A DNA stretch of 64,000 bases, from positions 1 to 64,000 of IMG/VR virus record IMGVR_UViG_3300049005_000030. One strand, 5' to 3'. Of this stretch, positions 8,693 to 37,813 are shown piece after piece. Each line of letters begins with the position of its first letter. The stretch's first letter is position 1. Origin of the DNA: a virus. A program made the position numbers and the translations under genes. A model generated the notes under the pieces. It saw only the letters and a program-made list of their open reading frames with translations, made no database searches and was not told the origin of the DNA.

Positions 8693-9550
8693 CTACAACC
8701 CTACCAACGCCAGCGCCGGCCACAGCAGGCCCGTCACGTCGCCGAGCACCACCACGTTGGCCGCCGTCAGCAGCGGCATCACCGCCCGGCGCTCGAACGC
8801 CTTGCCCGCGTGGAAGCGCAGCGGGTACGGCAGCAGGGCCACCTCACGCCAGCGCTGCCCGCGCACCCGCAGCGGCCACCAGAACGGCAGGCCGGCCACC
8901 GTGTGCCCGTCGCCCCAGCAGTGCACGTAACAGCCCAGCGCCACCACCGCGCCCAGCCATGCTCCGACCGGCGCGGGCACGTCGCCGAGCCAGCTGGCGG
9001 TCAGTGCGGTCAGGCCGGCGGCCGTGACGCTGACGGCCACCCAGCCGTTGGAGCGCAGCCACCGGGGCAGCGCGCGGCGCGCGGCGCGGCGCAGCCGCCC
9101 GTGGGGCTTGTCGTGGCCGAACCGGGGTGCGAGGCCGCGCACGGCCAGGGACAGGAAGACGAACAGGCACGCCAGCACGGCGACGCGTCCGCCCCAGCCG
9201 CAGGCCAGCGCGACCAGGCCGCCGAGCACGAGCGGGAACGGCCAGGTGTGGGTGATCTTGCGGTGGCCGTCACGGCACTCCGGCTTGTCGTAGCGGGTGC
9301 GCGTGCGGTGGTAGGCCCAGACGCCGAGGCTGTCCAGGCCGCGCGCGGCCGCCTCGCTCACGGGCCCGAACGCCCGGGAGACGGTGGCGCCCGGGTGGTC
9401 GAGGTCGGGCAGCAGGGCGGCCCCGGCGCACAGCGCGCCGGCCACCAGCTGGACCAGGACGCTGAGGTGGACGCCGAGCAGCGCCGGCAGCAGGTGGGCG
9501 GCGGCGGCGCCGATGACGCTGCCGTGCAGCGCGTGGCCAGGTGCCATCAT
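8693..9550 (-). CDS. YdjM-like membrane metal-dependent hydrolase family protein, 285 aa
   Basis: The family signature of YdjM/DUF457-type membrane proteins is visible: HALHGSVIGAAAAH near the N-terminus, PDLDHPGAT, GHRKITHTWPFPLV, and HCWGDGHTVAGLPFWWP. These His/Asp positions are the conserved putative metal ligands. Four or more hydrophobic helices place it in the membrane. ATG 9550 is preferred to the longer in-frame start because GGGAGAGA lies just before it. Phages carry such genes, but the role is unknown. No palindromic promoter points at it. Confidence 0.8.
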   Translation of the reverse strand: MMAPGHALHGSVIGAAAAHLLPALLGVHLSVLVQLVAGALCAGAALLPDLDHPGATVSRAFGPVSEAAARGLDSLGVWAYHRTRTRYDKPECRDGHRKITHTWPFPLVLGGLVALACGWGGRVAVLACLFVFLSLAVRGLAPRFGHDKPHGRLRRAARRALPRWLRSNGWVAVSVTAAGLTALTASWLGDVPAPVGAWLGAVVALGCYVHCWGDGHTVAGLPFWWPLRVRGQRWREVALLPYPLRFHAGKAFERRAVMPLLTAANVVVLGDVTGLLWPALALVGL

Positions 9551-18293: not shown

Positions 18294-18357
18294 CCACGTG
18301 GCCGCCGATACGGCTGCGACGATGGCGCGAGCGCGCATAGATCGTGAGGAGACAGCG

Positions 18358-19922: not shown

Positions 19923-22900
19923 GTGACCGCACCCCCGATCCCCGCCCTGGAATACAAGACCCTCAGTGCCACCCTGGCCGCGCCGACCGCGCTCAACCCC
20001 AGTGACACCGGGGACGCCGTGGTGGTCGGCTACGACGACGCCAAGGGCACCGTCGACGCCGTAGTGGCCGTCACCGGCACTCGCGACGAGGTGGGCGACA
20101 TCGTCACCCCCGGCGCGTTCAAGTCGAGCATCGCTAGCCGCCACCCCAAGATGTGCCTGGGCCACGACTGGAACCGACCCATCGGCTGGCCCATCGACTA
20201 CAAGGAACTGCTGCCCGGAGACCCCGGCCTGCCGGCCGAGACCGCCGACGGCAAGCCGTGGCCTGCCGAGGCCGGCGGCCTGTGGACGCGCAACCAGTAC
20301 ATGCTCGACACCCAGGACGGCCGCGACGCCTACGCGCACGCGAAGTTCTACGGCAACAAGACGGCCTACTCCATCGGCTACGTCGTCACCAAGTCCCGCA
20401 AGGCCCTGGTCGACGGCCTGCCCACCCGGATCATCGACGAACTCGACCTGTACGAGTACGGCCCGGTGCTGCACGGAGCGCACCCGCTGGCCACCCAGCA
20501 GTCGGTGAAGACCGCCGCGCCGCAGGGTATCGAGAACAAGGTGCGGCTGGTTCACGACGCCCACTACTGGGGTCTGCCGATGGGCACCCCGATCCACCCC
20601 GGCATGAAGCCGCGCGGCGCGAAGGCGCAGAAGCTGGAACGGGCCGGGCACGCCGTGTCCGAGACCGAGGGCGCGGTGGACATCCCCAATGACAAGCTGC
20701 GGATCAAGCCGACCGCGCGGGGCAAGTCGAAGTTCAAGCCGGACGGCGCGCTACAGGCCCAGCTCTACGGCGAGATCATGTCGAAGATCGACGAGGGCGA
20801 GGCTCCCGAGGACTTCTCGGTCGACGACCCGAACGGCCTGAACAAGAAGGAAGGCGAGTACAACCCGCTGGACCTGATGGTGGCCAACGGCGTCACCCCG
20901 GCCGAGATGGAGAACACCCTCCGCAACGCCAACTGGGACGACAGCCGGGTGGGCGACTCGGCCGACAACCAGGACCAGATCAACACTTTCGTTGACGACG
21001 TGGTGGGCGTCTACCGCGAGAAGTACAACGCCGCCCTGGTCCAGCAGAACGGCAACAAGGACACCGCCACCGTCGCCGACCCCGCCGACACCGGCACAGA
21101 CTCGGCCGGTGTCGAAGGCCCCACCCCGGACGTGCCTGACACCACCGCGCCCGGAGACGCCAATGCCGGCGACACCACCGCGCCGGCCGCGCCCGAAGCG
21201 ACCGCGCCGGACCACCCGCAGGCAGCGCCGGGGTCGACTCCCCCGGCCGCGCCGGCAGCCGCGCCGGGGCAGCCGGACGCGCCCGGCATGTCCACCACGA
21301 AGCTGACCACGCTGCCCAAGCACGAGGCGGCGGCCGCCGCCGGCTCCATGTCCGACCAGGAACTGGCCGCGCACGACACCGAGATGGCCTCGCGTGCCAC
21401 CCAGCTCGGCCGCGACGGCCAGGTCAGCCCCAACCATCAGACCGTCAAGGACGAGGTCGCCCGGCGTGCGGGCAACCCGCCGCAGGCCCCGGCGGCCGGG
21501 CCCGCCGCCCCGGCCGCGAACGCGCCGGCTCCGACGACGGCCAAGCCGCCGCGCAAGCTGGCCGCCAAGCCGGCCGCCGCGATCGGCGCGGCCAAGCCCG
21601 GCAGCGTCACCCAGCACCCGACCGGCCCCGACGGCAAGCCCGACACCACCGCCGAGCCCGTGGCCAAGCAGGGCCTGGTCACCGACAAGGTGCCGCCGAA
21701 GATGGCCGACGGCCTGGCCAAGGCTGGCCTGGCCGAGCACACCGCCGAGCCCGGCAAGATGGTGCTGACCCCGCAGGGCGAGCAGCACCACCATGCCATC
21801 AACGGCACCACGCCGCCCGCGCCGAACGGCGCGCCAGGGGAACAGGCCCCTACCGCGCCGACGATGTCCACGAACAAACTGGCCTCGCTGAACAAGCAGG
21901 ACGTGGCCACAGCGGTGGGCGCGATGTCCGACCACGAGCTGGCCGGACACGACCAGGAGTTGGCCAGCCGCGCCTCCCAGCTCGGCAAGCCAGGTCAGGT
22001 CACCCCCAACCACCAAGCGGTCAAGGACGAGATCGCCCAGCGTCCCGCACCGGCCCCCGGCGGGATCCCCCCGACCGCCGCCGTGGGAGCGCCGGGGATG
22101 GCTCCGGCCGTCCCCGGCGCATCGGCCGTCCCTGGCGAGCCTGCGCACGCCAATGCCGTGGCCGCCGAGACGTTGCGCACCCTGCCGCGCGACGCCTCCG
22201 GCCGCGTCGACCTGGTCAACGCGCCCACCTCGCTGGTTCAGACCATGCGACAGGCCGGCATCGACGACAGCGGCGGCGCGGAACAAGATGAACAGTCGTT
22301 TACCCGCGCGCTGGACGCGCTGGACCAGCAGTACGGCCAGGACCCGGCCATGGCGCACGCGCTGACCACCGCACGCGGCTTCGTCACTGGCGAGCAGCCC
22401 GGCGCCCGCGTCATCCAGAAGCAGGCCGCCGCCGACGCCAAGCAGCTCCAGACCGATGAGACCCCGGTGGGCGACCGGGCCGACGCCGCGCGCGTGCTGG
22501 CCTCCGCCCTGAACAAGTCCGGCATGGCTTACATGTCCGACCCGTCCGGCAACGTCCGCGACAGCCGCCCCATCCCGAACGCCCTGTCGAAGTACGCCCA
22601 GGCCCTGGTCAGCTATCACGGCGCGCTGCCGCCCGCGAAGGTCGCCAAGCCCTCCGGCGCGCCCGACTACACCCCGACCGGCGACGCCAGCCGCCTCGGC
22701 GAGCTGACCGACAGCCAGTTGGCCGCCGAGGTTGGCCACGCGCAGGGCAAGCTGGACGAGATCACCAAGGCCGACCCCCGCCGCGAGTCCGGCCAGCACG
22801 CTGACGCCAAGCTGAAGCTGGACGCCTTCCAGGGTGAGCACAGCCGACGGCAGCAGGCCGGGGAGACGCGCCCGGACGAGACCGCTCCCGACGCAAGCGG

Positions 22901-25900
22901 AGGCACTCCTCCGAATCCGGAGGCCGTTTCGGCGACGTCCACACAGGACGGACAACCGGCCGCCGTTCCCAACGCTGCCAACGAAACCGGCATCCCCGGC
23001 ACACCCGCCGCACCGCCGGCCACCCCGCACTCCGACACTGTTCCGACCCCACAGGAAGCCGCCCAGATCACCGCCGACGAACAGGGCGACGTCCAGGACA
23101 TCGGCGACTCCGCTCAAGGCGTGGTCGAGTCCGACGACGGCGAGTTCGAGGTGGAACCCGACATCGCCGAACGCCAGGACCGCATCGCCACCCTGCTCGG
23201 CCAGTCCGATAGCGGCAACCTCGACCTGGGCAGCCAGAACGACGACCAGTTGCGCTCAACCCGAGGCGACATCGTCGGCGAGATCCAGTTGCAGCGGTAC
23301 CTGGACAACCGCAACCGCCAGCGCGCCAACCCGCAGCCCACCACACCGGAACCGCCGCACGCCCCGGAGGGCGCCGCACCGGCCCAGGGAACCGTCGACG
23401 GCCACACCCCCGGCACCCAGGCGACGCCCGGCGCGCCGGTGCCGGCCGTTCCGGCCGAATCGGGGCCGCCGCCGCAGCGCCCTGGCGTCGCGGGCGCGGC
23501 CGAGGACTTCGCCGACGCCCTGGAATCCGGCGACAGCGAGAAGATCGACGCCGCGCGGGCCCGGCTGGCGTCCAGCCTGCGCCGGTCCAAGACAGACGCC
23601 GCCTCGGTCGGCGCGATGCGCGAGCTGGCCTCCGGCGAAGGCGACCCGAGTGCGGAGGACCTGCGAGCCGGCGCCCAGACGGTGCGCACGGAGGTGCGCG
23701 AGCGGCGCAACACCCAGGCTCGCAGCCGCCGCACCGCGCGCCGCTTCGAGCGCGACCACCTGCGCAACCTGCTGCACCAGGTCGAAGGCGAGATGGACCG
23801 CCGCAACATGCGGTACGACCCGGTGGCGCCGGAGTCCGGCGACGGCGCGGCCGCCTCCGGGACGTGGCGGACCGAGCTGCGCAAGCATTCCTGGTCCAAT
23901 CTCGGCTTCCAGGAAGACCATCTGAGCGGGGCCAACTTCACCGCCATGGTCTCCACCCCGGTCGACGCCAAAAACAACCCCACCGCTGGCGCGAACTACA
24001 CCTGGAAGACCATCGACAACGATGGCAACACCATCACCCAGGGCAATGGCACCGTCGACAACGCCACCGGCGCCCGCGACGCCATCGTCACCGCGCTCAA
24101 GGCGCAGCAGGCCCTGGGCAACCTGCCCGCCGACGCCGGGGTGCCCGAACCCAGCACTCCCCAGACCAGCTCGGCGCGCACCCATGCCGACGTGGCCGCC
24201 GCCGTCAGCCAGATGCAGGAGCGGCTGAGCACGGCCGAACGCGCCGTCAACCCCATCACGGGGGCCCGCGATCCGCTGGGCAAGCGCCCGACGCTGACCC
24301 CGCCCGCGCGACCCGCGTTCACCAGCCCCGACCAGGTGCGCCAACACCTGGCGACCCTGGCCGCCGACGGGTCGCAGACCCGCCAGCTCATCGCCCGGCG
24401 AGCCGTGAACGTGCAGTGGGACAACGTGCAGCTCACCCCCGGCGGCGGCCTCATGGTCGTCACCGTGGCCGGCGAGAAGGACCCGCAGCTGTGGCACACC
24501 GGCAGTGGCCGCTCGGCCATGTCGCTGATCTACCGGGGTTCCGGCGGCGCCTCCCGCCTGTCCGCGCCGGATCTGCTGCGCGCCGGCACGCTCATGGAGT
24601 CGCTGCCCGACGACAACGGGCACACCGTCGACTTCTCCAGGTCCGACGACAACAGCGTGATGACCAGCACGAGCGACTACACCGTGGGCGACCGCAGCGG
24701 CGTCGACGCGTTCGCTCGCAACGTCATGAGCGCGCTGGTCGCCGAGAAGATCAAGAACGGCCAGTGGGGCAGCCCCGTGGTCAGGGGCATGTCCTCCGAC
24801 GTCGCTCCGTTCTCGCCGGGCAGCAACCACACCCGCGCCGGCTACGTGCAACAGAACCGCGACGCCCTGACCACAATGCTGTCCAACTCCCTGACCGGCC
24901 GCCGCGTCAAGCCCACCGGCGAGGACGCGGACACCCTCAACGTCGCCACCGCCGCCCAGACCCTGACCAACCTGGGCGCGCCCGACGCGGCCGCCGTGCT
25001 GCTGCGCCGCCGCGCCGCCGAGGTGCGCGCCACCTTCGGCGGTGAGGCCGACGCGCACGGTGCGAGCACCCTGGACAACCTGGCCGCCGGCCACCTGTCC
25101 ACCTACTCACCTGTCCTGTCCCCCGGCGAGCGGCTGCTCAGCATCACCCAGGGGGAACGCGTCACCGTGGCCGACCCCGACGGCAACGCCCGTAGCTACC
25201 GGGTGCTGTCGCCGCCGCGCACCGGCACGTTCCCCGCCTATCGCACCGCCACCGTCATGGACGAGTCGACCGGCGAGACCGGCGTGCTCACCGTCGCCAA
25301 CAATGCCGCCGAGCAGCCGCAGATGACCATCAGTCCCAGCGCGGACCTGCCGGCCATGGTGCGCATCGACCTGCACTCGCCCACCTTTACCGTGACCGGC
25401 GCGGACGAACCGGCCCCCGCCAACGCCGACGAGGTGCGCGCGAACGCCATGGCCGAGGTGGACGCCATCCCGCATGAGGTGCTGGACGCGGCCGCCGCCG
25501 CCCTGCCCTCCACCAACACCGAGACCGCCGCGCGTCGGGCTCTGCCGGCCGACCAGCGGCCGCCCCGGCGCACCAGCCCGCGCGCGGTCCCCAAGACCGC
25601 GCCGGAGGCCAAGCCGGGCACCCCGGTCGCTGGCGAGCAGCACCTGGCGGCCACCCAGGCCAGCACGCTCAGCTCGTGGGTGGGCGCCGAGCACACGCTG
25701 TCCGACTCGGCCCCTGCCGGTGGATTTGACTCGCTGGCCTCATGGCGGGAGTGGGCCAGGGAGGCCGCCAGCGACCCGAACACGCCGCCGAAGGTGCAGC
25801 AGGGGCTGACCAATGCGTTGCTCAACGACGACTACCTGGAAGCGAACGGGGCACGTCTGTCACCGGGTGGTCACATGATCGTGTTCGGAAAGAACGGACA

Positions 25901-27005
25901 CGTGGTCTACGCCCGCGCTGGCATGACCGTGTTCCCGGCCGGCGTCGGCGCGGCATCCGCCATCGGCGTGGACAAGATCCCGCCCGACACCGGTATGGCC
26001 ATCGCCGACGGGATCGAGCGCAGCTCGTGGAACGGGCAGACCATCCGCTGGGGCGATGGGTACACAGCCGCCACCTCCGACATCAAGAAGGTTATGGAAA
26101 ACCTGCCGCGCGCCAGCGACAAGGTGGGGTACCGGGATCCGATGCTGTCCCCGGCCAAGCTGGCGTTCGCCGGCCAGGTGGCCGACGCCAAGACGCCCCG
26201 CGTGGGCGACATCGAGGCGCTGGAAGCACTGGCCAGCGGATCGGCCTCGCCGAACATGGCGAGCCCGGACGCCATCGGCGGCCTGCATCTACAGGACCGG
26301 GAGAACGCCTACCGGCAGATGGCCGGTGTGCGCGCCCGGGTGTTCTACTCCACCCCGGTCAAGCGGAACGAGCCCGCCGACACCAAGGCAGGCCAGAACC
26401 TGGCGAAGCGGGTGGCCACGGAAATGCGGATCGCCCAGTCGCTCTCGCAGGTCGCTCCGCTGGACGCCTCGCGCCGGCTGAACCGGGTGGCCGACGAGAT
26501 CGACGGCCAGAAGATCACTGAGGCCAACGGCGGTTCCGAGCACAACCCGGCCGCCGAGATGCGGGCGGCGGCCCGCGCGATCGCCGATGCCTACGACGAG
26601 AACAAGGTGACGCCGTTCGGGAAGCTTCGCCGCGCCGGAAATGTCGGTCTGGTCATGCCACGCTCGGCTCCGAAGGTGACGGCCGTTGGCGCGGGTACCT
26701 ACAGCCGTGACGACCGGGCCAAGGCGCTGGGCGAGATGCTGGCCCAGGGGGTCCAGTTCACGCGCGGCGAGGACGGGGCGACCATCGCCCGGTTCGGCGA
26801 CCAGGCTGTGACGACCTCGAACACGCCGGGGCAGTTCACCACCGCGTACGCGGGCGGCAACGGCAAGCCGGTGCAGGGCGGCATCGGGCTCCAGCCGGAC
26901 GGCAGTATCACGATGCGCTGGCAGGACCGGCTCACCCGCACCACGGTTCAGGCCACGATTCCGGCGGGCGGCTGGGATTTCCAGGACTCCACAGCCGAGG
27001 AATAA
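19923..27005 (+). CDS. Prohead protease fused to giant virion (polyvalent-type) protein, 2,360 aa
   Basis: Residues about 30-185 are an HK97-type prohead serine protease: TGTRDEVGDIVTPGAF, catalytic H81 in LGHDW, nucleophile S150 in KTAYSIGY, and DLYEYGPVLHGAH. Stand-alone members are usually about 200 aa; here 2,100 more residues follow without a stop. These include Pro/Ala-rich linkers, two 60-residue direct repeats starting at M456 and M648 (MSTTKLTTL and MSTNKLASL), coiled-coil stretches and several unrecognised globular regions (for example about 1300-1560 and 1900-2360). This suits a polyvalent protein that is packaged and cleaved. The GTG start follows AGGAAGG; P11 lies upstream. Confidence 0.85.
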   Translation: MTAPPIPALEYKTLSATLAAPTALNPSDTGDAVVVGYDDAKGTVDAVVAVTGTRDEVGDIVTPGAFKSSIASRHPKMCLGHDWNRPIGWPIDYKELLPGDPGLPAETADGKPWPAEAGGLWTRNQYMLDTQDGRDAYAHAKFYGNKTAYSIGYVVTKSRKALVDGLPTRIIDELDLYEYGPVLHGAHPLATQQSVKTAAPQGIENKVRLVHDAHYWGLPMGTPIHPGMKPRGAKAQKLERAGHAVSETEGAVDIPNDKLRIKPTARGKSKFKPDGALQAQLYGEIMSKIDEGEAPEDFSVDDPNGLNKKEGEYNPLDLMVANGVTPAEMENTLRNANWDDSRVGDSADNQDQINTFVDDVVGVYREKYNAALVQQNGNKDTATVADPADTGTDSAGVEGPTPDVPDTTAPGDANAGDTTAPAAPEATAPDHPQAAPGSTPPAAPAAAPGQPDAPGMSTTKLTTLPKHEAAAAAGSMSDQELAAHDTEMASRATQLGRDGQVSPNHQTVKDEVARRAGNPPQAPAAGPAAPAANAPAPTTAKPPRKLAAKPAAAIGAAKPGSVTQHPTGPDGKPDTTAEPVAKQGLVTDKVPPKMADGLAKAGLAEHTAEPGKMVLTPQGEQHHHAINGTTPPAPNGAPGEQAPTAPTMSTNKLASLNKQDVATAVGAMSDHELAGHDQELASRASQLGKPGQVTPNHQAVKDEIAQRPAPAPGGIPPTAAVGAPGMAPAVPGASAVPGEPAHANAVAAETLRTLPRDASGRVDLVNAPTSLVQTMRQAGIDDSGGAEQDEQSFTRALDALDQQYGQDPAMAHALTTARGFVTGEQPGARVIQKQAAADAKQLQTDETPVGDRADAARVLASALNKSGMAYMSDPSGNVRDSRPIPNALSKYAQALVSYHGALPPAKVAKPSGAPDYTPTGDASRLGELTDSQLAAEVGHAQGKLDEITKADPRRESGQHADAKLKLDAFQGEHSRRQQAGETRPDETAPDASGGTPPNPEAVSATSTQDGQPAAVPNAANETGIPGTPAAPPATPHSDTVPTPQEAAQITADEQGDVQDIGDSAQGVVESDDGEFEVEPDIAERQDRIATLLGQSDSGNLDLGSQNDDQLRSTRGDIVGEIQLQRYLDNRNRQRANPQPTTPEPPHAPEGAAPAQGTVDGHTPGTQATPGAPVPAVPAESGPPPQRPGVAGAAEDFADALESGDSEKIDAARARLASSLRRSKTDAASVGAMRELASGEGDPSAEDLRAGAQTVRTEVRERRNTQARSRRTARRFERDHLRNLLHQVEGEMDRRNMRYDPVAPESGDGAAASGTWRTELRKHSWSNLGFQEDHLSGANFTAMVSTPVDAKNNPTAGANYTWKTIDNDGNTITQGNGTVDNATGARDAIVTALKAQQALGNLPADAGVPEPSTPQTSSARTHADVAAAVSQMQERLSTAERAVNPITGARDPLGKRPTLTPPARPAFTSPDQVRQHLATLAADGSQTRQLIARRAVNVQWDNVQLTPGGGLMVVTVAGEKDPQLWHTGSGRSAMSLIYRGSGGASRLSAPDLLRAGTLMESLPDDNGHTVDFSRSDDNSVMTSTSDYTVGDRSGVDAFARNVMSALVAEKIKNGQWGSPVVRGMSSDVAPFSPGSNHTRAGYVQQNRDALTTMLSNSLTGRRVKPTGEDADTLNVATAAQTLTNLGAPDAAAVLLRRRAAEVRATFGGEADAHGASTLDNLAAGHLSTYSPVLSPGERLLSITQGERVTVADPDGNARSYRVLSPPRTGTFPAYRTATVMDESTGETGVLTVANNAAEQPQMTISPSADLPAMVRIDLHSPTFTVTGADEPAPANADEVRANAMAEVDAIPHEVLDAAAAALPSTNTETAARRALPADQRPPRRTSPRAVPKTAPEAKPGTPVAGEQHLAATQASTLSSWVGAEHTLSDSAPAGGFDSLASWREWAREAASDPNTPPKVQQGLTNALLNDDYLEANGARLSPGGHMIVFGKNGHVVYARAGMTVFPAGVGAASAIGVDKIPPDTGMAIADGIERSSWNGQTIRWGDGYTAATSDIKKVMENLPRASDKVGYRDPMLSPAKLAFAGQVADAKTPRVGDIEALEALASGSASPNMASPDAIGGLHLQDRENAYRQMAGVRARVFYSTPVKRNEPADTKAGQNLAKRVATEMRIAQSLSQVAPLDASRRLNRVADEIDGQKITEANGGSEHNPAAEMRAAARAIADAYDENKVTPFGKLRRAGNVGLVMPRSAPKVTAVGAGTYSRDDRAKALGEMLAQGVQFTRGEDGATIARFGDQAVTTSNTPGQFTTAYAGGNGKPVQGGIGLQPDGSITMRWQDRLTRTTVQATIPAGGWDFQDSTAEE

Positions 27006-27048
27006 AAGCCGATAATAGCGCGGCTAACAATTCAATAATTGGGCGACA

Positions 27049-27076
27049 CGCCGGGCGGCTACGAAAGCGCCCGGCG
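27049..27076 (+). terminator. Intrinsic terminator before major capsid gene
   Basis: Perfect 9-bp stem CGCCGGGCG/CGCCCGGCG with a 10-base loop, followed by TTTCCCGTCT. It separates the giant protein from the capsid gene. The rest of the 156-base gap is relatively AT-rich and may hold a capsid promoter (TTGGTA at 27106), but no convincing -10 is seen. Confidence 0.8.
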
Positions 27077-27161
27077 TTTCCCGTCTAATCTGCCCCTTAG
27101 CGCGCTTGGTACTGACCGGCGCGGAGTAGCCGTATCCCTCCGTGTTGAGAGGACACACACC

Positions 27162-28487
27162 GTGTCGACCATTGCCAAGGAACGCGACTCGCTGCGCAAG
27201 GTGCTCACCGAGAAGAAGGCACTACTGGACCAGATCGAGACCAAGGGACTGAAGGACGAGACCGGCAACGGCCACTACGTCATCAGCGCCGAGGCCGCTG
27301 GCGAGTTCCGCAAGGTCATCGGCGAGTGCAAGGACATCAAGGCCCGGCTGGGCGAGCTCGGCGAGTACGCCGAGATCGACGCCTACCTGAACAACCCGGG
27401 CGCCGAGTCCAAGGCCGCCCAGATCCCGGTGCAGCGCGGCATGATGGAGCGCAAGAGCATCGGCCAGCGGTTCACCGAGTCCGCCGAGTTCAAGGACCGC
27501 AGCTCCACCGGCGTCATGCACACCGCCTTCGAGCTCGGCGAGGACCTGACCTCCCTGGAACGCAAGGACATCTACACCGCCGCCGGTGGCACCCTGACCC
27601 GCTTCGGCTTCGGCACGGTCGAGCAGGAGCCGGTTGTCCAGCGGCCCTACCGCACCGACCGGGTGCGCGACCTGTTCCCGCAGGCCAACACCAACGCCAA
27701 CCTGATCGAGTACATGCGCGTCCTGGGCTACCTGGACGGCAACAACAACGCCGCGCCGGTCGCCGAACGCGACGCCGGTAGCCCGCAGAACTTCGGCCTC
27801 AAGCCCCAGACCAAGCTGAAGTTCCAGCCGGCCCAGTCCCCGATCCGGACCCTGGCCCACTGGGAAGTCGCGCACCGCAACACCCTCGATGACGAACCGA
27901 TGTTGCGTTCGATCATCGACAACGAACTGCTCTACGGCCTGCGGCTGGTCGAGGATGACCAGTTCCTCAACGGCGACGGCACCGGCGAGAACCTGCTGGG
28001 CATCCTGCGCACCCCCGGCGTGCAGGACTACCCCGGTTTCCCGCTGCCCAGCCCGTCGCCGGTGCAGGCCCTGGACACCCAGATCGACGCGGTGCGCCGC
28101 GCGGCCACCCGCGTCATGCTCGCCTACTACTCCCCGACCGGCGCCGTGGTCCACCCGTACGACTGGGAGACCATGGAGACCACCAAGACGACCCAGGGCC
28201 AGTACGTGATCGCCCTGAACGTCGCGGTGGGCGCGGAGAAGCGGATCTGGCAGATGCCGGTCGTGGCCTCCCCCGCCATGCAGCAGGGCGTGGGCCTGGT
28301 CGGCGCGTTCGGCCTCGGCGCGAAGATCTACGACCGCCAGCAGTCCAACATCCGCGTGGCCGAGCAGCACGAGGACCTGTTCATCCGCAACGCGGTGCTG
28401 ATCCTGGCCGAGCAGCGGGTGGGCCTGACCGTGTCCCGCCCGGAGTCGTTCGTCAAGATCGACCTGGTGGCGGGCGTCCACAGCTGA
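27162..28487 (+). CDS. Major capsid protein, HK97 fold, 441 aa
   Basis: An N-terminal helical scaffold-like arm (residues about 5-80: LRKVLTEKKALLDQIETKG and LGELGEYAEIDAYL) precedes the capsid domain. The latter has AAGGTLTRFGFGTVEQEPVV, AHWEVAHRNTLDDEPMLRSI, DDQFLNGDGTGENLLGIL, and a beta-rich C-terminus (VGLTVSRPESFVKIDLV). This is the phage_capsid/HK97 layout, and the arm is probably removed by the protease encoded just upstream. GTG 27162 follows GAGAGGA; the upstream in-frame ATG at 27039 is rejected because it lies before the terminator. Confidence 0.93.
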   Translation: MSTIAKERDSLRKVLTEKKALLDQIETKGLKDETGNGHYVISAEAAGEFRKVIGECKDIKARLGELGEYAEIDAYLNNPGAESKAAQIPVQRGMMERKSIGQRFTESAEFKDRSSTGVMHTAFELGEDLTSLERKDIYTAAGGTLTRFGFGTVEQEPVVQRPYRTDRVRDLFPQANTNANLIEYMRVLGYLDGNNNAAPVAERDAGSPQNFGLKPQTKLKFQPAQSPIRTLAHWEVAHRNTLDDEPMLRSIIDNELLYGLRLVEDDQFLNGDGTGENLLGILRTPGVQDYPGFPLPSPSPVQALDTQIDAVRRAATRVMLAYYSPTGAVVHPYDWETMETTKTTQGQYVIALNVAVGAEKRIWQMPVVASPAMQQGVGLVGAFGLGAKIYDRQQSNIRVAEQHEDLFIRNAVLILAEQRVGLTVSRPESFVKIDLVAGVHS

Positions 28488-28555: not shown

Positions 28556-29008
28556 ATGGCCCAGCAGAGAAACCCCGACAGCGCGGCACTGAAGAACCGC
28601 CGCACCGCAGCCGCCAACGCGAACACCCCGCCAGCTGAACCGCCACTGGCCGACGTCCCCGTCTCCATCGGCGAAGAGGCGGCACGCCGGTACCCCGTCC
28701 TGTTCGACCCGCGCGAACCCGCGTTCCAGCCGGTCGAGGCGTCAGGGTTCGCACCGCCCGGGATCGTCGACGACCGGTACGTCATCGCGCCGTGCGACGC
28801 CAGCGAGCACATCTACCCGCCCGGCTGCCGCACGCCGGTCACGCGCAGCCTGTGGCGCGCCGGCCAGCACGTGCCCCGGCACGTGTTCGAGGCGTGGGAG
28901 GTCCGACAGCAGGCGCTAGCCGAGGACCAGGCCGAGGCCGAGACGCCGCCCGTCCCGCAGCCGGAACCGTCGGCCGACACCACGACCGTCGCGCCCGCCA
29001 CGTCCTGA
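28556..29008 (+). CDS. Hypothetical virion-block protein, 150 aa
   Basis: The protein has disordered N- and C-termini rich in Ala, Pro and Thr, and a central part (YPVLFDPREPAFQPVEAS ... PPGCRTPVTRSLWRAGQHVP). The family is unknown; by position after the capsid gene it may be a head accessory protein. There is no Shine-Dalgarno; TACCCT ends 7 bases before the ATG, suggesting a leaderless transcript starting just after the terminator, though no -35 is evident. Confidence 0.65.
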   Translation: MAQQRNPDSAALKNRRTAAANANTPPAEPPLADVPVSIGEEAARRYPVLFDPREPAFQPVEASGFAPPGIVDDRYVIAPCDASEHIYPPGCRTPVTRSLWRAGQHVPRHVFEAWEVRQQALAEDQAEAETPPVPQPEPSADTTTVAPATS

Positions 29009-29057: not shown

Positions 29058-29531
29058 GTGAGCGTGCGCCGCGACAGACTGGTGATTCCCCAGGGCAGTT
29101 ACTGGGAAGCCAGCTGGCGCGTGCGCGACGCGGCCGGCGCCCCCGTGACCGACCTGTCCGGGTGGAGCGTGCGTGGCCAAATCCGAGCCACTGTCGATTC
29201 CGACGTGGTGTTGTACGAGTGGAGTGTTGCCGCCGGCAACGCCGCCCTGTATGCCCCGTTCGTCAGCCTGATCGTGTTCGACACCGACTCGGACGCCTGG
29301 ACGTGGCAGGACGGTGTGTACGACATCGAGGTCACCGATCCGGGCGCGCGGGTCTACCGGCTGGCGGAAGGTGACGTGTTCGTCTCCCGCGAGGTGACCC
29401 GCGACCCCGGCCGCACCCCGGCCGCCGCACTGTGGACCGGTTCCGGTGCACCCAGCGGCATCGTCGGAGCCGTAGCCGGCGACGACTACCTGGACACCGC
29501 CAGCGGCGACATCTACACGTTGGAGGCGTGA
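29058..29531 (+). CDS. LtfC/BppU-like beta-sandwich fibre or baseplate protein, 157 aa
   Basis: The N-terminal 115 residues match the pattern of fibre-associated beta-sandwich domains in actinophages: IPQGSYWEASWRVRDAAG, LSGWSVRGQIR, AWTWQDGVYDIEVTD, YRLAEGDVFVSREVT. The C-terminus (SGAPSGIVGAVAGDDYLDT) is Gly-rich, as in fibre linkers. The GTG start has no good RBS; GACGAT ends 7 bases upstream. It directly precedes a fibre gene, so a role in fibre attachment is inferred. Confidence 0.65.
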   Translation: MSVRRDRLVIPQGSYWEASWRVRDAAGAPVTDLSGWSVRGQIRATVDSDVVLYEWSVAAGNAALYAPFVSLIVFDTDSDAWTWQDGVYDIEVTDPGARVYRLAEGDVFVSREVTRDPGRTPAAALWTGSGAPSGIVGAVAGDDYLDTASGDIYTLEA

Positions 29532-29533
29532 CC

Positions 29534-31096
29534 ATGACGGCCACGTGGGTCAAGGTCGGCAACATCAAGGGCCCGGCGGGCGACCCCGGACCACCCGGTG
29601 GCGGGCCCGCCACCCCGACCGTGCTCGGTGGCGTCAAGCTGGCCGGCGACCTGACCGGCGACGCCAACGCGCCCACCGTTGTCGGGCTGGCCAACAAGTA
29701 CGTCAAGCCCGGCCCCGGTATCCCGTACGCCGACCTGGTGACCGCCGTACGCGCCAGCCTGGACAAGGCCGACTCGGCGGTGCAGCCGGCCGGCCTGACC
29801 ACAGCGCTGTCGACCAAGGCCGATCTGGTGCACGTCCACGTCCAGTCCGACGTCACCGGGCTGGTCACGGCACTGGCGGCCAAGGCTGATGTGTCGGCCC
29901 TGGTCACCAAGGCGGACCTGGTCGGCGGCACCGTTCCGCAAGCCCAGATACCGGCCATCGCCATCACCGAGTTCCTGGGCGCGCCCGCCAGCCAGTCCGC
30001 GATGCTCGCGCTGACCGGCCAACGTGGCGACTGGTGCACGCGCAGCGACACCGGCACCAACTGGCAGCTGATCGCCGACGATGCCAGCCAGCTGAGCAAC
30101 TGGCGTGAGCACACATACCCGGCCTCGCCGGTGAGCAGCGTCGCCGGCCGCACCGGCACGGTCGTGCTCGCGCGCGGCGACGTCGGACTGGGCGCCGTCG
30201 ACAACACCGCCGATGTGGACAAGCCGGTGTCGACGGCGCAGGCCACCGCCATCACCGCGAAGTACACCAAGCCCGGAACCGGCATTCCGGCCACCGACTT
30301 CGCGGCCGCCGTGCAGACCAGCCTGGGCCGGGCGGACACGGCGCTGCAATCCGCGCCGGTCACCAGCGTGGCCACCAAGACGGGCGCGGTCACCCTGGCC
30401 AAGGGCGACGTCGGGCTGGGCAACGTCGACAACACCGCCGACACGGCCAAGCCGATCAGCACCGCCACCCAGGCCGCGCTCGACCTCAAGGCCGCCTTGA
30501 CCGTCACCGACGGGCTGAACACCCGCCTGACCGTCGTGGAGGCCAAGCCGTCGCTGCCCAGCTCGGTCTACCCGGCTTCGGCCTACGGGTTTTTCACCGC
30601 CTCGGCCAACCTCGACTCGTTCGGCAAGGACCCGAGCTCGGCCAACGAAGCGTTCTTCGCCCGGATTTTCGTGCCCGCAGGCAAGGCCATCAGCGCCATA
30701 GCCGCCTACGTGGTCGCCGCCGGCACGTTCGGCGGCACCCCCGCCCTGAACGGCTTCTCGATCTTCGCCGACGACGGCCAGACCCAGCTCTACACCTCAC
30801 CCAACGACGACACCATGTGGCAGGCGGCCGGCTGGGTCGTCAAAACCCTGGGGTCCCCGATCCCGGCGCAGGGCGCCGACCGGTTCGTCTACGCGGGCAA
30901 GTCCGTGCGCGGCTACAGCGTGCAGCCCAGCATGGCCTACCTGGTGTTGCCGGCCACCATGACCGAGGGCGGCGGCAACGGCGTGAGCAACCGTCGCGCC
31001 TTCTACAACACGATCTCGGCGTGGCCGGCCACATTCACTCCCAGCACCTACGGGAACGCCTCCGCTGGCTACATCCCGTGCATCGCGCTGGGCTGA
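29534..31096 (+). CDS. Tail fibre-like protein with collagen-like start and repeats, 520 aa
   Basis: A short collagen-like stretch (KGPAGDPGPPGGGPATP) near residue 12 leads to repeated shaft modules: GDVGLGAVDNTADVDKP and GDVGLGNVDNTADTAKP, the GLGNVDNTSD-type repeat typical of fibre shafts. The C-terminal 180 residues form a probable receptor-binding domain. ATG 29534 follows the previous stop by 2 bases. It is unusual to find a fibre between capsid and connector genes; another fibre set lies at 45293-50852. Confidence 0.85.
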   Translation: MTATWVKVGNIKGPAGDPGPPGGGPATPTVLGGVKLAGDLTGDANAPTVVGLANKYVKPGPGIPYADLVTAVRASLDKADSAVQPAGLTTALSTKADLVHVHVQSDVTGLVTALAAKADVSALVTKADLVGGTVPQAQIPAIAITEFLGAPASQSAMLALTGQRGDWCTRSDTGTNWQLIADDASQLSNWREHTYPASPVSSVAGRTGTVVLARGDVGLGAVDNTADVDKPVSTAQATAITAKYTKPGTGIPATDFAAAVQTSLGRADTALQSAPVTSVATKTGAVTLAKGDVGLGNVDNTADTAKPISTATQAALDLKAALTVTDGLNTRLTVVEAKPSLPSSVYPASAYGFFTASANLDSFGKDPSSANEAFFARIFVPAGKAISAIAAYVVAAGTFGGTPALNGFSIFADDGQTQLYTSPNDDTMWQAAGWVVKTLGSPIPAQGADRFVYAGKSVRGYSVQPSMAYLVLPATMTEGGGNGVSNRRAFYNTISAWPATFTPSTYGNASAGYIPCIALG

Positions 31097-31139: not shown

Positions 31140-31481
31140 GTGGCATTCACGAACAACGCTAAGAATGCTGCGGTGGACGGTATCGCGGCTGCCGCGACCT
31201 ACATTTCACTGCACACCGCCGACCCGGGCACGACCGGCACCAGCGAGGTTTCCGGCGGGTCGTATGCCCGCGTGCAGACCACGTGGGCGGCCGCGTCCGG
31301 CGGTTCCCGCGCGGGCAGCCAGGCCGTGATCAACGTCCCGGCGTCCACGACCATCACCCACTGGGGCATCTGGTCGGCCAGCACCGCCGGCAACTTCCAT
31401 TTCGGCGGCACGCTGCCCGCCTCCGAGACCTACGGATCGGCCGGCACCTACGGCCTGACCCCGACGATCACGGTGTCCTGA
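31140..31481 (+). CDS. Tail fibre/decoration-like protein, 113 aa
   Basis: A small beta-rich protein (ISLHTADPGTTGTSEVSGGS, then ITHWGIWSASTAGNFHFGGT). This pattern is common in phage tail fibre-like or decoration proteins. The GTG start has AAGGGA upstream. Its stop overlaps the next ATG (TGATG). Confidence 0.7.
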   Translation: MAFTNNAKNAAVDGIAAAATYISLHTADPGTTGTSEVSGGSYARVQTTWAAASGGSRAGSQAVINVPASTTITHWGIWSASTAGNFHFGGTLPASETYGSAGTYGLTPTITVS

Positions 31482-31699
31482 TGGCGACCACGGCGAAGGT
31501 GACGGTGGCCCGCAAGGACCCGGCGGGCAGCGGTGAGACGGATCTGGTGTTCTCGGCCGACTACGCGGACGGCCGGAACAAGGAGTGGGCCAAGTACACG
31601 CCCAGCCTCGACCTGCGGATGCGTGTGCTGGACAGCGTGGCCGAGCAGTTCTCCCTCGGTCAGGCTTTCCTGCTGACCTTCGAGCCTGCGGACGAGTGA
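31481..31699 (+). CDS. Small hypothetical virion-block protein, 72 aa
   Basis: A beta-rich small protein (TTAKVTVARKDPAG ... VAEQFSLGQAFLLTFEPADE) without a family I can name. It starts inside the previous stop and its own stop overlaps the next GTG, so it is translationally coupled on both sides. Confidence 0.6.
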   Translation: MATTAKVTVARKDPAGSGETDLVFSADYADGRNKEWAKYTPSLDLRMRVLDSVAEQFSLGQAFLLTFEPADE

Positions 31700-31938
31700 G
31701 CGTGGTCGACAACCAGCACCGGAAGATCACTGGCTACCGGGACGCCCCGGACGGCGACATTCAGATGGTCAACCGCATCAAGGCCATGGAGATCTCGGTG
31801 GCCGCGCTGCACGCCGAGGTGCGCAGCACGTACGGGGCGAGCCACGTGCTCGGCCGGGCCGCCGACCAGCTCTCGCTCGGCTTCAGCGACATGGTCCGCG
31901 CGGTGATGAAGCCGCAGGATCCGTTCATCATCGACTAG
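31696..31938 (+). CDS. acb2: Acb2-like (DUF7681) cyclic-nucleotide sponge, 80 aa
   Basis: The N-terminal helix pair has the Acb2 signature DNQHRKITGYRD followed by VNRIKAME, and the C-terminus LGFSDMVRAVMKPQDPF matches the family's closing helix. From memory, the ligand-contacting residues of Acb2 from PaMx33 are Y11 and K26; Y14 and K29 here keep the same 15-residue spacing. Acb2 proteins bind cyclic di- and trinucleotides and block CBASS. The length is close to the usual 80-95 aa. GTG 31696 overlaps the previous stop, so it is translated with virion genes. Function is inferred from the family. Confidence 0.8.
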   Translation: MSVVDNQHRKITGYRDAPDGDIQMVNRIKAMEISVAALHAEVRSTYGASHVLGRAADQLSLGFSDMVRAVMKPQDPFIID

Positions 31939-31948
31939 GAGGTGAGAC

Positions 31949-34288
31949 GTGGCGGTATCGGTTCGATCGTCGACAGTGGCGACCGGTGACGCTGTCGCCA
32001 CGATCACCGTTGCCAAGCCGTCCGGCACCGTGTCGGGCGACCTGCTGGTGTTGTTCCAGTTCTGCGACCCCGATGTGACCCCGGCCAACATGACCGCGAC
32101 CGGGTTCACCCAGTCCGGCACGACCAAGACGGTCACCGGCGTGTCCACGTCAAAGGTCTGGACCAAGGTGGCGGGCGGCAGCGAGCCGTCCACCTACACC
32201 TTCGGCATGGACGTCAACACCTCCGGTGTCTACATCCTCGTGTGCGTCACCGGCCAGGACGCCACCACGCCGGTCAATATCGCGCCGACCTGGGGTAGCT
32301 CCACCACCGCCGCCCAGACCAACCATGTCGCGCCGGCCATCTCCCCCACCGTGATCAACACCTTGTTGCTGTGCGGCTTCACTAGCGGTTCATCCACCAC
32401 CGCGTCCTACACGCCGGCCAGCGGCATGACCGAGCTGCAAGACGCCTGGTCGAACTTCGAATTCGCCTCGGTCGACTCCCAGGCGCTGACCGCCACCGGA
32501 ACGACCGGGACCCGCACCGCCGTGGCCACCTCCGGCGGAAACGGCTGGATCGCGGTCAGCCTCGCCATCGCGCCCAGCACCAGCGCCACCTTTACCGGCT
32601 CCCCCTCGGCCACCGGCACCGCCAGTGCGACCCTGACCGGGGCCAAGAAGGTCGTCAGCAGCCAGTCACCCGGCCTGACCGCCTCGGCCACCCCGGTCGG
32701 CGCGAAAGCCGTCACCGGCACGCGCACAGCCTCGGCCACCGCCTCGGCCACCCTGACCGGCGGCAAAACCGAGACCGCCACCCTCTCGGCCACCGCCACC
32801 GCCTCGGCCAGCCGCACCGGCGTGCACGCTGGACACGGCGAGCCCGTCGCGACCGGACTCACCCTCGGCGCGAGCGTGACCGCCGGCCGGCTGTCCACCA
32901 CCGCCGCCGCGACCGCTGTCGCCACCGCCTCAGCCAGCCTTACCGGCACGCACACCACCGCCCGCACCACCACGGCCGCCGCGACGCTCGCGGCCACCGC
33001 CGCCGTCACCCGGGCCCAGGCCGGCGCGGCCACCGCCACCGCCACCGCAGGCGCGAGCGACACCGTGATCCGGACGCAGGTCTCCGCGCCGAGCGCGGCC
33101 ACCGCAACCCTGTCGGCAGCGGCAACCGGCGGCCTCGCGTTCGTCGGCTCCCCCAGCGCGGCCGCCACCCTGTCCGCCTCGGCCGTGGCCGGCAAGGTCG
33201 CCGCCGGCAGCCCGGCCGCCGCCACCGCCACCCTGGGCGCGTCCGCGATCGGCGCGGCGCAGCGCGGCGGCACGGTCACCGCGAGCGGACTCACCCTCGG
33301 CGCGTCCGCCGTCGCGGGCCGGCTGTCCACCACCGCCGTCGCCACCGCCGTCGCGACGCTCGCGGCCGGCGCCGCCGTCATTCGGGTCCAGACCGGCGCG
33401 GCCACCGCTGTCGCGACGCTCGCGGCCGGCCGGACCGGCATCCGAGCCCAGGTCGTCACCCGGGGAGGGGTGGCCACCCTCGGCGCGTCGTCCAGTGCGA
33501 CGAAATCGACATCCGTCGTGGCAACCGCCACCGCTGTCGCCACCGCTGTCGCCGTCGGATCGAAGGCGCCGGCCGATGTCGCCGTGACGGCCGCCGCGAC
33601 GCTTTCGGCCGGCGCGGTCGGGGTCAAGCGGATCGTCGGGGCCGGCACCGCCGCCGCGACGCTTTCGGCCGGCGCGACCGGCCTGCATCGTACCGGCGTG
33701 ATCGTGGCGGCCAACTCGATCGCGGCCGCCGCCTCGGCCGCCGGCATCAAGGCCACCGGGCGCGCGGCGACCGCCGGGGCCGTGCTGGCCGCCGTCGCCA
33801 CCGTCGTCAAGGCGGTCGTGGTCACGCGCGCCGCCAACGGCGTCGCGCTCTCGGCTACGCGGGTCGTGACGGGCAAGGCCGTGCCGGTGTCGAGGACGGC
33901 CGCCGGCATCGCAGCCGGCGCCTCGGCGGTGGTACGCACGGGGCGACTTGGCGCGCCGAGCGCGGCGGCGGTAATCACGGTGACCCGGTCGACGGTCGGC
34001 CGGCGATTCGGCGTGCGCACCGCCACCGCCACCGCGTCGGCCGCCAGCGCCGTCGACCAGAAGGCCGTCGCCACACGAGTCGTCGCCGCCGCGATGGCCA
34101 CAGCCAGAGCGGCCACCGTCACGCACCGGCCGGGCGGACCGGCCACCGCGCACGCCGCGCTGACGGCCACGATGCGCACGCGCAACATCACCGCGTGGCC
34201 GCCTCAGGCCACCGAGCCCCCGCAGGTCAGCACCGGCGTGCACGCTGACAAGCCAGTGATCAACGCACGACCGGGAGCGGGCACATGA
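31949..34288 (+). CDS. Large Ala/Thr-rich repetitive virion protein, 779 aa
   Basis: Residues 1-205 form a beta-rich domain of the kind seen in actinophage minor tail proteins (VRSSTVATGDAVATITVAKP ... SLAIAPS). The next 530 residues are imperfect repeats of roughly 20-25 residues built on ATATLSA/ATLAAG, ending in a short Pro-rich tail. Some DNA repeats are nearly identical, for example GTCGCGACGCTCGCGGCCGG at two places near 33352 and 33410, indicating recent duplication. It may form a fibre or a beta-solenoid shaft. GTG start after GGAGGTGAG. Confidence 0.75.
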   Translation: MAVSVRSSTVATGDAVATITVAKPSGTVSGDLLVLFQFCDPDVTPANMTATGFTQSGTTKTVTGVSTSKVWTKVAGGSEPSTYTFGMDVNTSGVYILVCVTGQDATTPVNIAPTWGSSTTAAQTNHVAPAISPTVINTLLLCGFTSGSSTTASYTPASGMTELQDAWSNFEFASVDSQALTATGTTGTRTAVATSGGNGWIAVSLAIAPSTSATFTGSPSATGTASATLTGAKKVVSSQSPGLTASATPVGAKAVTGTRTASATASATLTGGKTETATLSATATASASRTGVHAGHGEPVATGLTLGASVTAGRLSTTAAATAVATASASLTGTHTTARTTTAAATLAATAAVTRAQAGAATATATAGASDTVIRTQVSAPSAATATLSAAATGGLAFVGSPSAAATLSASAVAGKVAAGSPAAATATLGASAIGAAQRGGTVTASGLTLGASAVAGRLSTTAVATAVATLAAGAAVIRVQTGAATAVATLAAGRTGIRAQVVTRGGVATLGASSSATKSTSVVATATAVATAVAVGSKAPADVAVTAAATLSAGAVGVKRIVGAGTAAATLSAGATGLHRTGVIVAANSIAAAASAAGIKATGRAATAGAVLAAVATVVKAVVVTRAANGVALSATRVVTGKAVPVSRTAAGIAAGASAVVRTGRLGAPSAAAVITVTRSTVGRRFGVRTATATASAASAVDQKAVATRVVAAAMATARAATVTHRPGGPATAHAALTATMRTRNITAWPPQATEPPQVSTGVHADKPVINARPGAGT

Positions 34289-34896
34289 TCGTCACGCCGC
34301 AACAGCTCAACCACTTCATGTCCGATCCGAAGTGGACCGAGACCCAGACGCTGGCCGCTGAGGCCACGTTGGCCGGGGTCGAGGCCAGCTTGGAAGACAG
34401 GCTGTACGGCGCATACATCACCCTGCGGCCGGCGCGCACCGAGACCGCCATCGTGCTCGCCAGCGGCACCGTCGACACTCGCCAGCCGGTCCACTCGGTC
34501 ACCAGCCTCAACGGCGCGGCCGTCGACGACGCGCACCCGCTGGACGCCGCCGCCTGGTCGATCTACGACGGCAGGCTGCACAGCCTGACCCAGGCCGCCG
34601 CCGTTCCGTCCGGACCGGTCGGCACGCTGTGGCCAGGCTGGGACGGCTGGGGTTCGGGCCGCTCGACCCGCACCGCCGGCACGGTGCTGCTGACCTACGT
34701 GCCCGGCTGGGGCGACGTGCCGGCGCTGCGGCTGGCGATTCTGCGCAAAGCCAAGGCGATCATGGACAACTACCATGACGACTCGATCCTGGCTCGCAAC
34801 ACCGACGCCCAGAAGCCGCCGCCGCTGGTGCCGGAGACCTTCACCGATGACGAGATGGCGCAGTTGGGCACCTACCGCTGGCTGACGACGGGGTGA
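34285..34896 (+). CDS. Head-tail connector-like protein, 203 aa
   Basis: The N-terminal helices (LNHFMSDPKW ... AEATLAGVEASLEDRLYG) and C-terminal helices (LRLAILRKAKAIMDNYHDD) around a beta-rich middle are typical of gp6-like head completion proteins. Its position, before virion morphogenesis and tail terminator genes, agrees. ATG 34285 overlaps the preceding stop, with GGGAG upstream. Confidence 0.75.
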   Translation: MIVTPQQLNHFMSDPKWTETQTLAAEATLAGVEASLEDRLYGAYITLRPARTETAIVLASGTVDTRQPVHSVTSLNGAAVDDAHPLDAAAWSIYDGRLHSLTQAAAVPSGPVGTLWPGWDGWGSGRSTRTAGTVLLTYVPGWGDVPALRLAILRKAKAIMDNYHDDSILARNTDAQKPPPLVPETFTDDEMAQLGTYRWLTTG

Positions 34897-36346: not shown

Positions 36347-37813
36347 ATGCCGGGAGTGGTGGTAACCACCGGCGCCGTTGCTGGACCGAGCGCGCCGACC
36401 ATCGCGCCGTCCGCCACCTACTTCGCAGTGGGGCTCACCGAGCGCGGCGCAGCGAACACACCGACGCTGATCACATCGTTCGCCCAGTTCGAAGCGGTGT
36501 TCGGGCAGGCGACCAGCTACAGCGCACTGCACGACGACGTCAAAATGTTCTTCGCCGAAGGTGGCACACGGGTCTACTGCCAGCGTGTGGTCGGAGCCTC
36601 GGCCACCACAGGCGTGCTCACCGGCGGACTACAGGACCGCAACGGCACGCCAGCCACCACGCTCAACGTGGCGGCCAAGGCCGCCGGGGCGTGGTCCACC
36701 CAGGTCTCGATCAAGGTGCTGGACGGCTCGACCTCGGGAACCTTCCGGATCCAGCTGTACCTGTCCGGCGTGCTGATCAAGGATTACACCAACCTGCACA
36801 GCCCGCAGGAAGCGGTCAGCCGCGTCAACGGCGACTCCACCAACTTCTATGTGGTGCTCTCCGACGCCGGATCGGCATCCTCGGCGCCCAACAACAACCC
36901 GGTGGCCCTGTCCAATCCGGTCGCGCTCGCCGCCGGCACCGACGACCGCGCCTCGGTCGTCGCCGCCACCTACGTCGCCGCCCTGGCCAACTTCGACTCC
37001 GGACTGGGCGACGGCGCGGTGTCCATCCCCGGCCTGGGGCCGTCGGTGCACGCCGGCCTGATCGCGCACGCCGACACCTACAACCGGATCGCGATCCTGG
37101 TTGAGGCGCGCACCGCCGACAAGGGCACGCTGGAAGGCACCGCCGCCGCCCTGGACGCCAAGCGCGCGGGGCTGTTCGCACCGTGGGTGCGTGTGCCTGA
37201 CGCGTTCGGTGGCACCAAGACCATCAGCCCTGAAGGCTATGTGGCGGCCAGCCGAGCCCGGGCGCACAACACCGTCGGCCCGTGGCAGTCGGCTGCCGGC
37301 GAGATCTCCAAGGCTCGCTACGTGCTCATGCCGGACATCATGTACTCCGCCGCCGACGGCAACGAGCTGGACGGCGCGAAGGTCAACGCCATCCGCACCG
37401 TGGCCGGCGCGGTCCGCGTCTACGGCTGGCGGTCGCTGTCGTCCGACACCGACAACTGGGCGTTCCTCAAGGACGCCGACGTCGTGAACCGGGTGGTCAC
37501 CGAGTCCTACGCCCGGCTGGAGCCGTACCTGTTCGCGGTGATCGACGCCAAGGGACAGCTCCGGTCGCAGATCGCCGGCACGCTGGAAGGCATCGTGCTG
37601 CCGATGGCAACGGCCAGCGGCCTTTTCCCGAGGATCGCCGCCGACGGGACTCAGCTCGACCCTGGGTACAAGGTCAACGTCGGCGACGACATCAATCCGG
37701 TGGCCTCGCTGGCACAGAACCAGATCCTTGCCACGCTCGGCATTCGGATCTCGCCCACCGCCGCGATGGTCTTCCTGACGGTCACCAAGGCCGCCGTGAC
37801 GGCCGCGCTGTGA
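36347..37813 (+). CDS. Tail sheath protein, 488 aa
   Basis: The contractile sheath of the tail. Family features: PGVVVTTGAVAGPSAPTIAP at the start, FVGLTERG-like AVGLTERGAAN, FAQFEAVFGQATSYSALHDD, FFAEGGTRVYCQRVVG, and the C-terminal domain with YARLEPYLFAVIDAKGQL and a final VFLTVTKAAVTAAL. Length is in the usual range. It identifies the phage as a myovirus type. GAAGGGACGGG precedes the ATG. Confidence 0.95.
   Translation: MPGVVVTTGAVAGPSAPTIAPSATYFAVGLTERGAANTPTLITSFAQFEAVFGQATSYSALHDDVKMFFAEGGTRVYCQRVVGASATTGVLTGGLQDRNGTPATTLNVAAKAAGAWSTQVSIKVLDGSTSGTFRIQLYLSGVLIKDYTNLHSPQEAVSRVNGDSTNFYVVLSDAGSASSAPNNNPVALSNPVALAAGTDDRASVVAATYVAALANFDSGLGDGAVSIPGLGPSVHAGLIAHADTYNRIAILVEARTADKGTLEGTAAALDAKRAGLFAPWVRVPDAFGGTKTISPEGYVAASRARAHNTVGPWQSAAGEISKARYVLMPDIMYSAADGNELDGAKVNAIRTVAGAVRVYGWRSLSSDTDNWAFLKDADVVNRVVTESYARLEPYLFAVIDAKGQLRSQIAGTLEGIVLPMATASGLFPRIAADGTQLDPGYKVNVGDDINPVASLAQNQILATLGIRISPTAAMVFLTVTKAAVTAAL

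Follow-up and report, generated by a model that had tools for sequence, protein, structure and literature searches.

A predicted Acb2-type cyclic-oligonucleotide sponge encoded between the capsid and neck genes of an actinophage

The locus and its phage

We asked whether a small ORF lying among the head genes of an actinophage encodes a sponge for the cyclic-nucleotide signals of bacterial defences. The ORF occupies positions 31696 to 31938 of the window, by which we mean the analysed stretch of DNA; it covers the first 64 kb of an IMG/VR virus record that is 101,153 bp long. Acb2 is a hexamer that binds cyclic di- and trinucleotides (PMC12043709, PMC10419184) and, as reviewed, acts in induction and not in lysogenic maintenance (PMC12043709, PMC10419184). 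Our preferred reading, to which we give a probability of roughly 0.8, is that the ORF encodes a predicted Acb2-type cyclic-oligonucleotide sponge that is carried as optional late cargo. This reading is based on homology to Acb2, a predicted hairpin, conserved pocket residues, a location between head and neck genes, and optional presence.

The capsid protein of the contig is 43-52% identical to those of Gordonia and Brevibacterium phages, and its tail sheath is 42-46% identical to those of Gordonia phages GMA6, DalanDe and Gray and of Brevibacterium phage Cantare. By these relatives, the contig is a contractile-tailed actinophage, as a preliminary description of the sequence had supposed. Between the major capsid protein (27039) and the tail tube (37827), both included, all assigned genes run in one direction. 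For comparison we used 14 IMG/VR contigs encoding a related capsid protein (46-78%), which we call siblings. The features of the region are as follows.

27039 to 28487, plus strand: major capsid protein (phrog_10), the anchor of the module and the protein that identifies the actinophage relatives
28556 to 29008, plus strand: conserved left flank of an accessory slot, with a homologue in 12 of 14 siblings (sibling comparison)
29531 to 31096, plus strand: tail-fibre-like repeat protein (family matches)
31140 to 31481, plus strand: Gp80-like fibre or "head protein" (phrog_240, PF23140; family matches)
31481 to 31699, plus strand: upstream 72-aa ORF, phrog_6978, of no assigned function (phrog match)
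31696 to 31699, plus strand: 4-nt GTGA in which the stop of the upstream 72-aa ORF and the start of the acb2-type ORF overlap (read from the sequence)
31696 to 31938, plus strand: predicted Acb2-type protein (PF24729, NQHxKIxGYR subfamily), 80 aa, GTG start (homology, profile and fold model)
31936 to 31951, plus strand: stop codon, the Shine-Dalgarno sequence AGGAGG and the GTG with which the next ORF begins (sequence)
31949 to 34288, plus strand: repetitive 779-aa protein without a family match (ORF list and family search)
34285 to 34896, plus strand: right flank of the slot (neck/connector region); Neck1 comes next, at 34901, and 12 of 14 siblings have a homologue of the flank
36347 to 37813, plus strand: tail sheath of a contractile tail (44-46% identity to Gordonia phage sheaths)

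The reading frame

The gene exists as it was first described, an 80-aa GTG ORF containing exactly the motifs that had been quoted for it (NQHRKITGYRD, NRIKAME and MVRAVMKPQDPF). Its G+C by codon position (0.66/0.39/0.96) is similar to that of its neighbours, which shows the ORF to be coding and adapted to its own genome. An alternative GTG is found at 31702, near the DNQH start of most relatives. Downstream, 10 nt with AGGAGG inside separate the TAG of the ORF from the GTG of the 779-aa ORF. Upstream, the GTGA overlap makes translational coupling to the 72-aa ORF plausible.

Homology to Acb2

We scored the ORF with a profile built from 36 relatives, leaving out the window protein itself. The match reached 61.7 bits (E 3.9e-16 at Z=100,000) and was the sole one among the 1013 six-frame ORFs of the window, while the best of 2000 shuffled sequences reached 8.7 bits. 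A phmmer search of PDB sequences recovered the Acb2 chains 8h2j (E 2e-5) and 8ixz (E 5e-5), and a second profile (A2), in which the window protein is included, recovered 8h2j at 9e-32, 8ixz at 1e-30 and T4 Vs.4 (7uq2) at 7e-8. The match to PF24729 (Acb2_Tad1_hairpin) is 17.7 bits, under the gathering cut-off of 27, which is a library threshold and not a family-defining property; the Pfam model begins past the NQH motif, leaving out the stretch that is conserved best. Judged by these comparisons, the ORF is a real Acb2 homologue, and the family membership first proposed for it stands.

A divergent sequence with a sub-threshold Pfam score might instead be a copy in decay, without function, or might resemble Acb2 by chance. 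We find this hardly credible, as the frame is intact, G+C at third codon positions is 0.96, the invariant residues described below are all kept, and 61.7 bits stand against a shuffle maximum of 8.7.

Where, then, are the closest relatives of this protein? A tblastn search of 50,697 phage records returned 192 records at E <= 0.01, with Pseudomonas phage 5400 at the top (41% over 74 aa, E 5e-10). The matches listed come from Gram-negative phages and two cyanophages, and among those listed at E <= 10 the only actinophage is Gordonia phage Morgana, whose match (E 5) is at chance level. In a plasmid collection we found matches in Gram-negative plasmids only, the best at 37%. No close relatives were found by single-sequence search of IMG/VR; a search of the same resource with the pattern NQHRKITGYRD gave eight contigs, whose proteins are 27-50% identical to the window protein. 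The head and tail proteins of the window have no match in these eight contigs, save a short fibre repeat in one of them (L215). On a phylogenetic tree the window protein joins Pseudomonas phages with weak support, on a long branch (3.45) with no close relative, and the 80 residues give too few columns to date or orient any transfer.

The nearest proteins by identity (37-45%) and in the tree are NQH-type hypothetical proteins of 76-87 aa encoded by Pseudomonas phages and IMG/VR contigs (5400, Meara, L031 and L019). These share an "NSIKA" helix with the window protein and in most cases a "KPADPF" end, but they are encoded on contigs of about 51-61% GC, with Gram-negative hosts where known. Among proteins of known structure, the Acb2 of PaMx33 and PaMx35 (PDB 8h2j, 8h2x, 8ixz) has the same NQHxKIxGYR start, Y11/K26 pair and conserved RAxxxP end, and a two-helix hairpin like the one predicted for the window protein. 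It differs in being only about 30% identical and in having 93 aa, against 80 in the window protein, in which the hairpin turn is short. Its gene is also placed differently: acb2 of PaMx35 is at the end of the replication genes, whereas the window gene is between capsid and neck genes, and in an actinophage. T4 Vs.4 (Acb2; PDB 7uq2) is linked to the window protein by the profile match (E 7e-8), the same predicted fold, a GY motif and a C-terminal RAVxxP, but is without the NQH motif; its gene belongs to the early region of T4.

Conserved residues and predicted fold

The Acb2 homohexamer offers three sites for dinucleotides and two for trinucleotides. We compared the window protein with 37 relatives, among which nine columns are invariant (N6, Q7, H8, I11, G13, Y14, R15, N26 and K29), and found all nine residues kept. 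Y14 and K29, which had been put forward as ligand positions with the spacing of Acb2, indeed align with Y11 and K26 of PaMx35 Acb2, residues that contact the ligand in PaMx33 Acb2, and are invariant in 37 sequences. In T4 Acb2, changing the equivalent tyrosine (Y8A) reportedly disrupts cyclic-dinucleotide binding, and F82 is reported to stack on the base (PMC12657218). The F82 column is M71 in the window protein and Ala in most relatives. It is one of six near-invariant columns that are altered here (L17A, E21D, R50H, T57D, M64S and A71M).

Because several near-invariant positions are altered, the ligand is possibly other than that of the Pseudomonas-phage Acb2. Taken further, the protein could be a sponge that keeps the fold but has its pocket turned to a different signal, such as some other cyclic oligonucleotide or a gcADPR of Thoeris; it would then be Acb2 by descent, with a different defence countered. 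The long branch of 3.45 and the changes at L17, T57, M64 and A71 alongside a retained Tyr/Lys pair fit such a shift, and homologues are known to differ in ligand range, the related Tad1 binding gcADPR (review, PMC12043709). The counterparts of the residues known to contact cyclic dinucleotides, Y14 and K29, are nonetheless intact, as is the NQH motif, and we regard a shifted pocket as unlikely.

An AlphaFold2 model of the window protein (pLDDT 86) has helices at residues 19-46 and 50-71. The N-terminal segment that carries NQH and Y14 is modelled at low confidence (pLDDT 56-69), so that residues 1-20 are less certain. The 80-aa model contains no beta-strand, and the antiparallel beta-sheet that precedes the hairpin at the N-terminus of Tad1-type proteins is absent from it. 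With Foldseek, the five best PDB matches to the fold are without exception Acb2 or Vs.4 (prob 0.99-0.66), with E-values >0.1; weak E-values are common with short helical proteins. The helical hairpin expected of an Acb2 protein, two long antiparallel helices together with a short one at the N-terminus, is supported by two long helices and by the identity of the top fold matches, but less well in its N-terminal segment and by the Foldseek E-values.

An accessory slot between capsid and neck

A structural protein of the virion should have counterparts in the head modules of the siblings. The profile found an acb2-type gene in none of the stretches examined of the 14 siblings, and such a gene is likewise absent from the matching interval of Gordonia phages Chidiebere, GMA6 and DalanDe, Brevibacterium phage Cantare and six sheath relatives. 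The flanks of the slot (homologues of the genes at 28556 and 34285) are nevertheless kept in 12 of the 14 siblings. The distance between them is 22-82 bp in six siblings (L195, L196, L197, L199, L200 and L201) and 1.0-3.9 kb in others (L190, L191, L192/L193, L194 and L198), where the gap contains proteins resembling fibres (phage tail repeat, laminin-G fold). The window has 5.3 kb between the two flanks. Since the gene is absent from siblings whose flanks persist, we place it in an accessory slot within a core module. The acb2-type gene is optional cargo.

In L192 and L197, HNH endonucleases are found nearby, flanked by the capsid gene and the 28556 homologue. Across this group of phages, the capsid-to-neck accessory slots hold fibre-like repeats, a laminin-G fold, HNH, acb2 or, in six contigs, nearly nothing.

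The surroundings of the gene suggest another possibility, namely that the product is a helical-hairpin protein with a minor part in virion structure or assembly, its sponge function lost or never there. The gene does lie in the midst of head and fibre genes, and its reading frame is plausibly coupled to the preceding one. We consider this reading quite improbable, since the 14 siblings lack the gene but otherwise keep the head genes, with the flanks nearly abutting in six; since the pocket residues are conserved and not merely the hairpin core; and since the functional acb2 of phage JBD67 occupies the same slot.

The preliminary description had the gene overlapping a virion gene. The GTGA overlap is real and the run of head-neck genes is unidirectional, but the partner is the 72-aa ORF (31481-31699), for which we find no support as a virion gene. 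Its relatives (49-58%) are accessory ORFs of about 40 Arthrobacter phages. In the three phages that we examined (Mudcat gp1, GlobiWarming gp71 and Hestia gp87) they are located outside the virion modules, at the ends of the genome and close to genes for HNH, lysis or replication, and it is this location that leaves "overlap with a virion gene" unsupported.

Recurrence of the slot in other phages

In the B3-like Pseudomonas phage JBD67, the order is capsid gene, small overlapping ORF, acb2 and head-tail adaptor, a slot like that of the window, although the JBD67 protein has 108 aa and is 34% identical. Deletion and testing of JBD67 acb2 are mentioned in a passage of PMC13083879 that cites Huiting 2023. 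The gene order around acb2 in Leptolyngbya phage Lsp-JY19 is similar to that in JBD67. Elsewhere, acb2 is between portal and capsid in Vibrio phage D80, between terminase and portal in Marinobacter PS6, and before the portal in Microcystis Mwe-JY05; in the other phages examined it is among early or replication genes. Because the slot recurs in JBD67 and others, placement among virion genes is no argument against a sponge. The recurrence of acb2 in the capsid-to-neck gap of unrelated phages also makes this gap worth searching for late-expressed counter-defence cargo.

Proposed function

For the favoured reading, a sponge for cyclic oligonucleotides, the following sequence of events may be envisaged. 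The window protein would be made together with the virion proteins, late in infection, through translation coupled to the preceding ORF. It would then form the Acb2 hexamer and bind cyclic di- and/or trinucleotides that the host produces upon infection. With the host's cyclic nucleotides bound, the effectors of CBASS, and possibly those of type III CRISPR, would be kept from activation and so remain inactive.

Cyclic-nucleotide signals are also used by type III CRISPR and Panoptes-type systems, and the earlier suggestion that the gene implies CBASS-type pressure in these hosts was therefore overstated. What an NQH-type Acb2 in an actinomycete phage does predict is that cyclic-oligonucleotide defences are met in such hosts. 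The gene opens no new mechanism; with it, the best-studied branch of Acb2, that of phages of Gram-negative bacteria, gains a member in an actinomycete phage.

Hairpin proteins and 2H phosphoesterases in actinophages

Acb2 has been announced in mycobacteriophages Xandras and BigBubba (PMC11953737) and in Microbacterium phage Statler (PMC13348362), proteins of clusters E and EG being named Acb2 in these two papers. We considered whether the Xandras protein belongs to the window-type subfamily and rejected this: gp101 scores 59 bits with PF24729, yet only about 6 bits with the window-type profile, and therefore represents another subfamily. The same PF24729 hairpin is found in gp24 and gp14 of Gordonia phage Chidiebere, also of another subfamily. 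These proteins have in common with the window protein a PF24729 hairpin in an actinophage, but they are without NQHxKIxGYR, score about 6-12 bits with the window-type profile, and are encoded at other genome positions. Acb2 in actinophages as such has thus already been reported, and the novelty here is that an actinophage has an Acb2 of the NQHxKIxGYR type, which stands on a long branch.

A further ORF of the window bears a domain of possible relevance.

18298 to 19860, plus strand: ORF whose product carries a 2H phosphoesterase domain at its N-terminus (PF13563; HLTLAYLG...HVTAGYG)

This 2H domain is commonly annotated "RNA ligase" in actinophages. T4 carries both Acb1 and Acb2, and T4 Acb1 is a 2H enzyme (PMC11722364). 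The overlapping genes described below suggest that sponge and phosphoesterase may be paired in actinophages, and ORF 18298-19860 is a possible second nucleotide-acting protein in the same gene run. A bolder version, which we hold to be doubtful, is that an actinomycete phage took up a Gram-negative-phage-type Acb2 and fully adapted its codon use, and that this gene shares a late operon with a 2H domain (the Acb1 fold); the two would form a sponge-plus-cleaver pair against an actinomycete cyclic-nucleotide defence, whose signal would be mirrored in the shifted pocket.

ORF 18298-19860 occupies the head-protease position, with no adjoining hairpin ORF in the window. Between this 2H/protease ORF and the capsid gene is a 2360-aa ORF (19923-27005), to which the siblings are 26-46% identical over parts only. 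In Chidiebere (MN586022.1 11838-13044; L222:7339-8545) and in the L195 contig (L220:122-1725), a PF24729 hairpin ORF overlaps the start of a 2H-phosphoesterase gene. These overlapping hairpin ORFs are of another subfamily (FTYHPP...ANAxIAR) and are located within actinophage head modules; related ORFs are found in 299 phage records, and phages of Mycobacterium, Paenibacillus and Gordonia account for many of these. Chidiebere gp14 (MN586022.1 5685-5897), a PF24729 hairpin at 45.6 bits, is encoded two genes ahead of the terminase, and a third, weak PF24729 hairpin of this phage (20.4 bits) is found at 8845-9003.
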